This document shows positions 21,470 through 24,720 of a stretch of DNA of 35,110 nucleotides, piece after piece; position 1 is the stretch's first letter, and each line of letters begins with the position of its first letter. Position numbers and translations under genes: made by a program. Source of the stretch: Sulfitobacter sp. (lineage in GTDB: Bacteria > Pseudomonadota > Alphaproteobacteria > Rhodobacterales > Rhodobacteraceae); the NCBI GenBank assembly GCA_024636395.1, contig JAGXHD010000246.1, forward strand, positions 1 through 35,110. The letters are read 5' to 3'. The notes beneath the pieces are model-generated. The model searched no databases. It was not told the DNA's origin and was given only the letters and a program-made list of their open reading frames with translations.

Positions 21470-21889
21470 CTATTCCGGATCGACCTTGCCGCGCATCGCC
21501 TTTACCTCGCCGCGCACCTTCTTGGCTTTGAGGCGCCGCTTTTTCGACCCTAATGTGGGTCTTGTCGCGATCCTGCGCTTGGGCGGTGTCAGCGCCTTCT
21601 CGATCAGTTCCTTGAGCCGCTCGCGCACCAGTTCGCGGTTGCGCGCCTGACTGCGGGTCTCGTCACATTGCAGCACCAGTGCGCCTTCGGTGGTCCAGCG
21701 CCTTCCCGCCAGCCTGCGCAAACGGTTTTTTACAGGAAGTGGAAGAGAAGGGGATGTTGCGGCTTCAAACCGCAATTCAACGGCGGATGACACCTTGTTG
21801 ACATTCTGCCCGCCGGGACCCGAGGCGCGCATGAAGCTTTCGCTAAGCTCCCAGTCCTGAATGATGATCGCGTCAGTAATATGCAGCAT
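21470..21889 (-). CDS. arfB: Alternative ribosome-rescue factor ArfB (YaeJ)
   Basis: GPGGQNVNKVSSAVELRF catalytic GGQ motif and basic C-terminal tail KKRRLKAKKVRGEVKAMRGK. Start at 21889. Confidence 0.9.
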   Translation of the reverse strand: MLHITDAIIIQDWELSESFMRASGPGGQNVNKVSSAVELRFEAATSPSLPLPVKNRLRRLAGRRWTTEGALVLQCDETRSQARNRELVRERLKELIEKALTPPKRRIATRPTLGSKKRRLKAKKVRGEVKAMRGKVDPE

Positions 21890-21935
21890 GGAAAACAGTA
21901 TAGCGCGCAAGCCGCGCTGCCCCAAGATGCGAAAT

Positions 21936-21960
21936 GGGCCACCCTGAAACAGAGCGGCCC
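21936..21960 (-). promoter_or_regulatory. Leader hairpin upstream of arfB
   Basis: Minus-strand GGGCCGCTCTGTTTCAGGGTGGCCC, about 9-bp RNA stem with two wobbles. Confidence 0.45.
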
Positions 21961-22032
21961 AATCGAATTGTAAGGAGGCGGGATCGGTTAGACCGATTGT
22001 CCACTTCGGATTTCAGTGAGCCAGGGGCTGCC

Positions 22033-22089
22033 CTAGCAAACGACCTCCAAAGCTGTTCCGACACCTCGCTCCAGTACCTTTCTTGACAC
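22033..22089 (-). CDS. Putative 18-codon micro-ORF (MSRKVLERGVGTALEVVC) with a very strong ribosome-binding site
   Basis: Minus strand AAAGGAGGTGATC-TA-GTG TCA AGA AAG GTA CTG ... GTT TGC TAG; the GGAGG core is 7 nt from GTG. Confidence 0.45.
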   Translation of the reverse strand: MSRKVLERGVGTALEVVC

Positions 22090-22198
22090 TAGATCACCTC
22101 CTTTGCATTTTGTTAAACCTGTACAATTGTTTGCACAGGTTATCCGGATCGCAAAGCATTTTTTGTAGTGGATTCCAGCGCGCCGGAATTTCGCCTAT

Positions 22199-22816
22199 TT
22201 ATGTGGCACGCAGGCGCGCGGTGATTAGACGGAACGGTACCAGCGCGAGCAATGCCAGCGAGAGCTTTACCGCCCAATCGGCCACCGCCAGCGACACCCA
22301 AAGTGGCGCTTCGGGCCCTTTGCCGAGGATTGGCAAGATCTCCGAAGCCCATGATACGTCCGTGCCGGGATGGACGAAGGAAAAAGCCCCCGAAAAGGCG
22401 ATGGTAAAGAAAATCGCGGTATCCACCGTGCTTCCGACCAGCGTCGAGACGAGGGGTGCTTTCCACCAGCTGCCGCCACGCAGCGCGCTGAAAATGCTCA
22501 CATCGAGCAGTTGCGCTGTGAGGAAGCCGATGCCCGAAGCGATCGCGATGCGAACAGTGACCAGCGGGCCGAATTCGCCCATGATCTGTGTTCCTATCAG
22601 GGAGCAGACGACCCCGACGACGAAGCCCACAAGAACGACTCGGCGTGCAGCCTGTGTGCCGTAAACGCGATTCATGATGTCTGTGACCAGAAAGGCGAGC
22701 GGATAGGTGAAAGCTCCCCATGTCAGCCAGTTGCCATAAAGAAACTGGACCAGAACATTTGAGGCCACCACGATGAGGGCCATGGCGATGATGCCGGGAA
22801 GATGCGTGCGCGTCAT
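22199..22816 (-). CDS. yhhQ: Queuosine precursor transporter (YhhQ/DUF165)
   Basis: ASNVLVQFLYGNWLTWGAFTYPLAFLVTDIMNRVYG, QLLDVSIFSALRGGSWWKAPLVSTLVGSTVDTAIFF. Confidence 0.88.
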   Translation of the reverse strand: MTRTHLPGIIAMALIVVASNVLVQFLYGNWLTWGAFTYPLAFLVTDIMNRVYGTQAARRVVLVGFVVGVVCSLIGTQIMGEFGPLVTVRIAIASGIGFLTAQLLDVSIFSALRGGSWWKAPLVSTLVGSTVDTAIFFTIAFSGAFSFVHPGTDVSWASEILPILGKGPEAPLWVSLAVADWAVKLSLALLALVPFRLITARLRAT

Positions 22817-22909: not shown

Positions 22910-23797
22910 CTATTCAGCAACGGTGAACTCCACGATCTGAGTGCGCTGGATCCGGAAAAAATTGTCATCCGAGATCATGGTGACGTGCAGCTGCCCTTGC
23001 GCGTCTTGCCAAACGCTGATGCCCTCGAGGTTGTCAAAACGCGCAGGAAATGAGGTCATCAGCGTGTATTCGCGCGCATTGGCCGGGTCGAGCACGAACA
23101 TCCGCACGCGGCTGCGAAACCCCAAGGGCGTCGCCGCCCGCTCCAGTAGCCAAAGGCGGCCCGAGGGATCAAGATCAGCACCCACGGGCACGAAAGGACC
23201 ACGCTGCGGGATGCGGGCCGCGATCCGCCAGCCGCCGTTTTGATAAGCATAAAGCGGGAACGGCTTTCCGGCGTCGGGGGCCTTTTCCGGAAGCGCAAAA
23301 AGCGTGCCATCGGGCCCTATTGCCAGCGCTTCGATGCCAGCATTGTCGCCCAGCGTGTCTTTGAACGGCAGGTCTATCCGCCCGCCTGTCCTGCCCGTGG
23401 AAAGATCGACCTGCATGATCCGGTGTCGATGCTCGAACGACAGATACGCCGTACCATCTGCACCAATCGCGAGCCCTTCGGCATCGCCGACCCGTTTATC
23501 CAGCCGGACACCTTTTGCATTTTTGAGCCCTGTTCTGCTCTGCACGCCGATCCCGGTCAGCTGCCCTCCGGAACGCTGCAAAACCGCATCGACCAGCTCT
23601 CCGCGATCACTGACGATCGTCATCCGGGTGCCTTGATCCCGCACTTCGATCCCGGACCAGCCTCCAAACCACGGTGCGTCAAGCTCCCAGCGCATCGCCC
23701 CGCTGAATTGGAGCGTCGTTTCTGCCAGCGCCCCGCTGCACAGGCAAAACAACGCCAGCGCCAGCCGGATCAATTGACTTCGAGCACAGCTTTGCAC
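22910..23797 (-). CDS. Secreted esterase-like activity of phytase family protein
   Basis: Signal peptide; FGGWSGIEVRDQGTRMTIVSDRGELVDA, DAEGLAIGADGTAYLSFE, NAGIEALAIGPDGTLFALPE. Confidence 0.8.
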   Translation of the reverse strand: MQSCARSQLIRLALALFCLCSGALAETTLQFSGAMRWELDAPWFGGWSGIEVRDQGTRMTIVSDRGELVDAVLQRSGGQLTGIGVQSRTGLKNAKGVRLDKRVGDAEGLAIGADGTAYLSFEHRHRIMQVDLSTGRTGGRIDLPFKDTLGDNAGIEALAIGPDGTLFALPEKAPDAGKPFPLYAYQNGGWRIAARIPQRGPFVPVGADLDPSGRLWLLERAATPLGFRSRVRMFVLDPANAREYTLMTSFPARFDNLEGISVWQDAQGQLHVTMISDDNFFRIQRTQIVEFTVAE

Positions 23798-24720
23798 TGC
23801 GCGGGCAGGTCCGCGAGAAGCAGCTCACCGCGCGGTTTCGGCGTGGCTGTCGGCTTCGAGGGCTGTGGTTTTGCCTTTGGCGGGCTGATGATATTCGCCT
23901 GCCACTGTCGTGCATCGTCACAGCCGTCACCCGCAGGGGGCGGGGTCTGGTTTACACAGCCGCGCGCACCGTTGGGGCAGGCGAGGCGGACGTGAAAGTG
24001 GTAGTGGTGCCCGTACCACGGCCGGATCTTGCGCAGATAGCTGCGGTCGCCGCGCTCATCATCGCACATCTGGACCTTTGCCCCCGGAAACACGAATATC
24101 CGCTCGGTGCGCGGATCTTTCGCCGCGGCCTTGATGATTTCGTGGTGCGCCCGCGTCCACGAGCCGTTGACGTAGGCACCGTTGGCACGGCGTGTCGAGA
24201 TCGACGAGATGTTCTCGCGCTGTACCCGCGTCAGGCTGAGCGACGTTGGCGGCAGCATCCAGATATCTGCATCAAGCCCGATTTGGTGGCTTGCGTGGCC
24301 GGTCAGCATCGGGCCTCCACGCGGCTGGCTCATGTCACCGACATAGAGGCCGTTCCAACCCGGCTGCTGGGCGGCAAACTGGCTGAGCTTCTTGACCATA
24401 GCCACAAGCTCGGGGTGCCCCCAGTTGCGGTTGCGCGACAGGCGCATCGCCTGCCATGTGGGCCCTGTCTCGGGCAGTTGCTGTGCCCCCGCGAGGCATC
24501 CCTTAGCATAGCTGCCGAAAGCGGCAGGCGATTGGGCGGTGCCGGAGGACTTGGTTCCGAACAGCTTTTTTGCCTCTACATTGCTCAGCGGGCCAGCCAG
24601 TTCGCCGATGGTGGGGAGCTCCATCCGCTCTTCTTTGGAGCCGCTGATGTCACGCGCGCCACCGCAGCTTGCCATCAGGACGCCAAGCGCCGAAATAATA
24701 AGGAGTTTTTTTACATTCAT
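23770..24720 (-). CDS. mepA: Penicillin-insensitive murein endopeptidase
   Basis: Lipoprotein-like start MNVKKLLIISALGVLMASCGG; RGGPMLTGHASHQIGLDADIW; WYGHHYHFHVRLACPNGARGC. Confidence 0.92.
   Translation of the reverse strand: MNVKKLLIISALGVLMASCGGARDISGSKEERMELPTIGELAGPLSNVEAKKLFGTKSSGTAQSPAAFGSYAKGCLAGAQQLPETGPTWQAMRLSRNRNWGHPELVAMVKKLSQFAAQQPGWNGLYVGDMSQPRGGPMLTGHASHQIGLDADIWMLPPTSLSLTRVQRENISSISTRRANGAYVNGSWTRAHHEIIKAAAKDPRTERIFVFPGAKVQMCDDERGDRSYLRKIRPWYGHHYHFHVRLACPNGARGCVNQTPPPAGDGCDDARQWQANIISPPKAKPQPSKPTATPKPRGELLLADLPAQCKAVLEVN

Follow-up and report, generated by a model that had tools for sequence, protein, structure and literature searches.

In the window, by which we mean the whole 35,110-nucleotide stretch of Sulfitobacter sp. 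DNA analysed here, the gap between a yhhQ-like gene and arfB raises the question of whether it holds a leader that controls arfB or a small gene of its own. An earlier note had described a micro-ORF behind an extended Shine-Dalgarno (SD) sequence, an anti-SD in the same RNA, and two hairpins, and had read them as an arfB leader. All of these elements were present on the minus strand at the positions given there (Table 1), and their conservation was far above chance. The extended SD AAAGGAGGTGATC had a single exact copy in the window, and five matches were found when up to two mismatches were allowed, compared with 0.62 expected. The minimum-energy fold of the window RNA, in which the SD was paired with the anti-SD, had an energy of −106.2 kcal/mol, compared with a mean of −80.8 kcal/mol for shuffled sequences (z = −5.5; 0 of 200 shuffles were as low). 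Within the region upstream of arfB, no Rfam family was matched at the gathering threshold, and a search for tRNA and tmRNA returned none.

Table 1. Features of the yhhQ–arfB gap and its neighbours in the window (SD, Shine-Dalgarno; R1, covariance model described in the text)
Feature	Coordinates	Strand	Evidence or remark
Structured RNA from SD to terminator tail, R1 match	21927..22104	-	149.5 bits, E 1.6e-39; window copy is within the R1 training set
Extended SD AAAGGAGGTGATC	22092..22104	-	sequence; core GGAGGTG (22095-22101) pairs with the anti-SD
18-codon micro-ORF VSRKVLERGVGTALEVVC*, GTG start	22033..22089	-	sequence; length and stop conserved
Start-codon hairpin, helix 2, alignment columns 12-17 with 30-35	22070..22093	-	96.7% of cells paired, 92 sequences
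Inner helix 3, 5′ strand TCGG, columns 44-47	22058..22061	-	96.2% paired; two-sided changes in 4/4 pairs
Inner helix 3, 3′ strand CCGA, columns 155-158	21984..21987	-	alignment
Stop-codon hairpin, helix 4, with stop TAG (22033-22035) in the stem	22021..22036	-	two-sided changes in 5/6 pairs; 79.4% paired
Local hairpin ATCGGT-CTA-ACCGAT	21983..21997	-	sequence; alternative to helices 3 and 5
CCCGCCTCCTTA, directly after the local hairpin	21971-21982	-	sequence
Anti-SD CGCCTCCTT, whose first seven bases (21974-21980) form the conserved pairing with the SD core	21972..21980	-	helix 1, 97.8% of cells paired (92 sequences)
GGGCC...GGCCC hairpin of the terminator	21935-21961	-	sequence
Intrinsic terminator TGGGCCGCTCTGTTTCAGGGTGGCCCA with short T tail, helix 6	21930..21961	-	two-sided changes in 11/11 pairs
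Approximate −35 place; weak TTTGCG-like sequence in the window	22148..22153	-	position counts in relatives
Possible own arfB promoter TTGGGG-N17-TATACT, 7 nt before the ATG	21897..21925	-	sequence inspection alone; window-specific; absent from the consensus scan output
arfB, downstream neighbour, ATG at 21889	21470..21889	-	NF006718 equivalog, 185 bits
yhhQ-like queuosine precursor transporter, upstream neighbour	22199..22816	-	TIGR00697 above cut-off; PF02592

Distribution and conserved fold of the RNA

The window RNA was the local copy of a folded RNA of ~190 nt. A covariance model (R1) was built from an alignment of 92 sequences drawn from matches to the Rfam model RF01867. In a sample of 111 Rhodobacteraceae-like genomes, one per genus, R1 found a single copy in 96 at E ≤ 1e-7, many of these 96 matches being members of the R1 training set. 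The RF01867 model itself matched 129 of 150 Rhodobacteraceae genomes at E ≤ 0.01, every one of them below its cut-off. A plain DNA search gave matches in 20 of 61 genomes, mostly to homologues of the window RNA, and the named contigs with the same locus were Rhodobacterales, such as Roseobacter sp. GAI101, Ruegeria, and Defluviimonas.

Counted on an alignment of related sequences from which the structure had itself partly been read, standard pairs occupied 92.0% of the pair cells in the 92 distinct sequences, and all five pairing measures were higher than in any of 500 shuffles or any slid control. Helix 1 joins the SD to the anti-SD, and its seven core pairs were complete in 19 of the 20 held-out loci, which lie outside the alignment. 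The SD core was invariant across the alignment; nearly all variation in its partners was C/U opposite G or A/G opposite U, and the two most variable partner positions had changed at least 16 and at least 19 times on the yhhQ tree. Helix 2 encloses the start codon, helix 3 is UCGG:CCGA, helix 5 was weaker, and helix 6 is the terminator. We read the figure of 79% for helix 4 as lowered because part of the alignment is one base out of register. In the Rhodobacteraceae form, the predicted pairing probability of the SD core was 0.95, compared with 0.68 when the rest of the RNA was shuffled. A candidate switch between the local hairpin and helix 5 was examined through column 150, which covaried with both columns 119 and 158 in raw counts; in the tree-controlled version, too few branches were supported.

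The conservation of this fold across about 90 genera supports the earlier proposal of a structured RNA, and the SD:anti-SD pairing was kept over the same range, so the comparison with relatives that the note had called for came out in favour of the pairing. On the predicted folds, a switch between an open and a closed ribosome-binding site is plausible. The perfect ATCGGT-CTA-ACCGAT hairpin to which the note had drawn attention is present in the sequence, but it represents an alternative fold, because the better-conserved helices 3 and 5 need the same bases.

Micro-ORF and neighbouring genes

Of 96 loci, 88 had an ORF of exactly 18 codons, whose stop codon was TGA (44), TAG (33), or TAA (11). 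On the tree, switches from one of these stops to another numbered at least 30. TGG, which is also compatible with the pairing of the stop hairpin, was never seen at this position, compared with 16.7 occurrences expected if the second and third letters varied freely. No in-frame premature stop was present, compared with 37-40% of sequences in the other frames, the sequences in this comparison having been preselected by ORF length. Among the held-out loci, 18 of 20 had 18 codons: 13 in the standard register and five in which the distance from SD to start was 1 or 2 nt shorter and the ORF was still exactly 18 codons long. The remaining two had 20 codons.

Amino acid constraint was confined to the first part of the ORF. 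The pN/pS ratio was 0.60 for codons 2-12, compared with 0.85 in both other frames, and 1.08 for codons 13-18, indicating no constraint on the residues there. The peptide pattern V-S-R-x-x-L-E-x-x-V-G-T was conserved, and serine was nearly always retained at codon 2 through at least 29 changes of its third base. AGA, TTG, GAG, and ACA were conserved as codons, beyond amino acid identity, which points to a constraint at the RNA level. Diverged members retained the ORF length and had mostly lost the peptide (for example, MSIGIQEQLVRITCEVRI); they had also lost the GATCC extension and retained AAAGGAGGTG, the anti-SD, and the ORF. The loss of GATCC weakened the long 16S complement as a candidate conserved feature. 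Judged from these comparisons, the constraint on the peptide looks modest, and a fixed length of translation, not the C-terminal residues, looks to have been selected. The micro-ORF with its extended SD, as described in the note, is conserved in relatives and bears, in its length and stop, the marks of translation.

In relatives, position counts placed a TTGACA-like element in a cluster at −47 to −51 from the SD; a sigma-70 consensus scan gave no match in the RNA region of the window. Because of the promoter spacing in relatives, the 5′ end likely lies ~14 nt upstream of the SD, near 22118. A 24-bp near-palindrome, ACCTGTGCAA-ACAA-TTGTACAGGT, was also observed on the minus strand at 22117-22140, overlapping the presumed promoter and the RNA 5′ end. 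The nearest relative (L086/L112) keeps it only in part, which would suit an operator or hairpin specific to this genome.

At the other end of the RNA, the terminator stands between it and arfB; its T tail was weak in the window genome and stronger in relatives. In 80 of the 93 family loci, arfB lay no more than 450 nt downstream, at a median of 53 nt and a minimum of 16 nt from the terminator stem. A constant position upstream of arfB was not found: at 13 of the 93 loci, all with sufficient flank, the RNA was kept and arfB was not there. yhhQ, upstream in 88 of 93, was the more constant neighbour. In other orders, neither yhhQ nor arfB lay beside the RNA, and by crude ORF calling the neighbours were diverse and unrelated. 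The stop-hairpin/terminator alternative, the single anti-terminator arrangement tested, showed no covariation and paired no more than column composition predicts, which spoke against arfB attenuation by this route. Control of arfB by the RNA, which the earlier note had preferred, was therefore not borne out, because a covarying terminator intervenes, arfB is missing at 13 of 93 loci, the neighbours in other orders differ, and the anti-terminator pairing does not covary. The fallback that it had named, an independent small mRNA or an anti-SD sRNA, is the better reading. As arfB can lie as near as 16 nt past the terminator stem, read-through into it may still occur.

Further observations concern the flanks. 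A run of 20-21 bases (GGGCAGCGCGGCTTGCGCGCT) at 21903-21923 on the minus strand overlaps the possible arfB promoter and has exact matches at other places in two relatives (G018:C3:261739 and G024:C56:54527). A phytase-like esterase (PF13449) lies upstream of yhhQ in most relatives, and the second upstream neighbour, from its translation, looks like a murein endopeptidase; the esterase and endopeptidase neighbours are at 23770-24720 and 22910-23797 on the minus strand.

Relation to CC2171 and other small RNAs

The only Rfam lead was a match of the window to RF01867 (CC2171) at 22.6 bits, below the gathering score of 75; the best score among 150 family genomes was 53.2 bits, and none reached the cut-off. 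With E relaxed up to 5, the region returned CC2171, mir-87, and suhB (13.5 bits, cut-off 41) alone, and no CcsR/cuckoo or alpha-r14 anti-SD family. The matches of R1 and RF01867 coincided in many genomes from other families, such as G237 (90.5 bits with RF01867), G229, and G405, and this agreement was reciprocal and included members above the cut-off.

An exact 20-mer, AAAGGAGGTGATCCAGTGTC, was present in 119 or more stretches, and almost all the listed ones were from Alphaproteobacteria; the carriers included Bosea, Bradyrhizobium, Methylobacterium, Microvirga, Devosia, and Brevundimonas, and an ORF of 14-26 codons followed in most of these loci. Since the loci of other orders were picked by this 20-mer, the evidence from them is limited to the rest of the RNA. 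Across 125 other-family loci, which the SD/start profile matched partly by construction, a terminator profile gave 75 matches inside the RNA and 9 outside, and a profile of the middle gave one non-significant match inside. No homology with other orders was detectable in the middle of the RNA, and alignment was limited to the two ends. From these comparisons, the window RNA would be either a diverged relative of RF01867 or a parallel limited to its ends, and it was kept out of RF01867 because its score lies below the cut-off.

Predicted accessibility differed between the groups. In other-order loci, the SD was predicted to be more open than in shuffled sequences (0.57 vs 0.71; start region 0.35), and in Bradyrhizobium it was predicted to be sealed by CACCTC within the ORF. 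A sealed SD as a class-wide rule was rejected, most other orders being predicted open. On these predictions, the sealed form is a design of Rhodobacteraceae and a few others and no general rule, and sealing appears not to be required in every such RNA because the SD and start in other orders are mostly predicted to be open.

Individual lineages had features of their own. Bradyrhizobium loci L164, L169, L173, L174, L183, L192, L193, and L206 carried a 14-codon ORF, VS(Y/F/C)(T/L/P)KRCHLAGIAR*, whose TGT-CAC-CTC codons contain an anti-SD; its pairing with the SD is predicted at P 0.86 (start 1.00), and a conserved GGACCAGCGAG segment lies downstream. In Rhizobiales loci such as L154, L178, L207, and L214, an ORF of ~25 codons contained a conserved TW(I/T)LAS stretch. 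The codons of this stretch are similar to the 16S 3′ tail and would be able to base-pair with the SD, a pairing unused in the open fold predicted for most; the amino acid conservation may stem from RNA pairing. In L118, L119, L120, L126, and L172, from other alphaproteobacterial families, GGNGCARCCUC within the ORF resembles the Rhodobacteraceae stop hairpin GGCAGCCC, and it is the predicted SD partner in L118 and L126.

CC2171 is a Caulobacter sRNA of unknown function (Rfam RF01867). It shares with the window RNA the 5′ box AAAGGAGGUGAUC(C/U)AGUGUC, a similar length, an intrinsic terminator, and about one copy per genome. In contrast to most RF01867-like relatives, which are predicted to be open, the window RNA has its SD sealed by a 3′ anti-SD in the predicted fold, and whereas Rfam files CC2171 as a non-coding sRNA gene, the window RNA carries a conserved micro-ORF. 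In Mesorhizobium huakuii, MH_s33 has been assigned to RF01867 and its RNA-seq transcript coordinates given (PMC5596092), and Rfam 15 lists CC2171 among the families with improved structure (PMC11701678). The main text of Schrader et al. 2014 reports, without naming them, two earlier-predicted Caulobacter ncRNAs as translated (PMC4117421). Our literature search, which covered papers available without subscription, found CC2171/RF01867 in two papers, no functional study of it, and no small RNA paper that gives the 5′ box, returning one paper on 16S processing instead; the Ruegeria and Paracoccus sRNA literature gave no entry that could be linked to the window RNA.

Other known small RNAs share parts of this design. 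Alphaproteobacterial anti-SD sRNAs of the CcsR/cuckoo and alpha-r14 types carry an anti-SD CCUCC segment, as does the window RNA, but it has no tandem CCUCCUCCC loop motif and its anti-SD pairs with the SD of the same RNA. In sequestered-SD mRNAs, which act as translational switches, the SD and start are held in secondary structure, and the same occlusion is predicted here; however, the whole window mRNA is only ~190 nt, its ORF is fixed at 18 codons, and we know of no ligand or temperature response for it. In Sinorhizobium meliloti, rnTrpL/peTrpL is a dual-function sRNA and small leader mRNA (PMC10117765). RNAs of the rnTrpL type and the window RNA are both short and have a terminator and an ORF of 14-18 codons, but rnTrpL, located upstream of trpE, is leaderless, whereas the window RNA has a very strong SD, its own anti-SD, and no constant downstream gene. 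The window RNA has the conserved ORF and conserved stop expected of a dual-function sRNA or small mRNA.

Proposed mode of action and alternative explanations

With moderate confidence, we interpret the locus as a small RNA gene in its own right. Its product would be a small mRNA that seals its own ribosome-binding site and is remodelled when a ribosome passes over the 18 codons. Sequence comparison among relatives shows a conserved fold, predicted to hide the SD and start, together with a length-locked ORF whose stop is selected, a terminator, and one copy per genome. We infer from these that the RNA is expressed and translated, that the fold and translation are mutually exclusive, and that CCUCC is released; the passage of the ribosome, and possibly a trans effect of the released anti-SD, would outweigh the sequence of the peptide. 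A promoter of its own in the yhhQ–arfB gap would start the RNA, and its own terminator would end it. In the ground state, the anti-SD just 5′ of the terminator would seal the SD, and a hairpin would hold the start codon. Opening of the seal would expose an unusually strong 30S landing site, and translation of the 18 codons would unfold the start hairpin, the inner helix, and the stop hairpin, leaving the 3′ CCUCC segment single-stranded. The output could lie in the anti-SD once it is freed, in the peptide, or in read-through that reaches arfB, and the pN/pS of codons 2-12 leaves room for a functional peptide.

The peptide could also be the point of the gene, selection keeping the 18-residue product and the structure merely tuning its translation. 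The conserved V-S-R-x-x-L-E-x-x-V-G-T pattern, the lower pN/pS of codons 2-12 (0.60, compared with 0.85 in both other frames), and the serine kept at codon 2 through at least 29 third-base changes are consistent with such a gene, but codons 13-18 are unconstrained (1.08), AGA, TTG, GAG, and ACA keep their codon identity, and diverged members such as MSIGIQEQLVRITCEVRI keep the length and little of the peptide; we regard this explanation as unlikely. The proximity of arfB, within 450 nt in 80 of 93 loci and as close as 16 nt to the stem (median 53 nt), would suit a cis leader or attenuator that expresses arfB by regulated terminator read-through. We nevertheless consider such a leader improbable, given the RNA retained without arfB at 13 of 93 loci, the other neighbours in other orders, yhhQ as the steadier neighbour (88 of 93), and an anti-terminator pairing without covariation.

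Still less probable, in our judgement, is a trans-acting anti-SD sRNA whose CCUCC binds target SDs while the ORF is incidental. It would account for the conserved C-rich 3′ segment CTAACCGRCCCACCTCC adjoining the terminator, as in known anti-SD sRNAs, but not for the selection on ORF length and stop, and in the predicted fold the SD of the same RNA already occupies the anti-SD. We give very little credence to a 30S decoy, in which the near-perfect complement of the 16S tail would titrate 30S subunits: although the 13-nt SD is well longer than a normal SD and A-to-G changes at column 11 preserve the wobble with 16S, diverged members without GATCC still have AAAGGAGGTG, the anti-SD, and the ORF, and the site is predicted to be sealed in the Rhodobacteraceae form.

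The small mRNA with a self-sealed ribosome-binding site can be taken one step further, to a ribosome-gated anti-SD riboregulator, a proposal that we advance only tentatively and hold to be doubtful. Opening by a 30S subunit and an 18-codon run would free CCUCC to bind the SDs of other mRNAs, the ORF would serve as a ruler for the passing ribosome and not to supply a peptide, and similar devices, wired differently, would occur throughout the Alphaproteobacteria under the CC2171 label. If ribosome passage does free the anti-SD, the cell could read out its translation capacity, and such a riboregulator would turn that capacity into regulation of its target mRNAs.

Most genera of a large family carry this one-copy RNA, which lies near an Rfam entry of unknown function filed as non-coding. 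In the window, it combines what is among the strongest possible ribosome-binding sites with a length-locked micro-ORF, and both can, by prediction, be hidden; this unexplained sRNA is therefore testable by a few point mutations. These findings suggest that some alphaproteobacterial 'ncRNA' labels may conceal small mRNAs.
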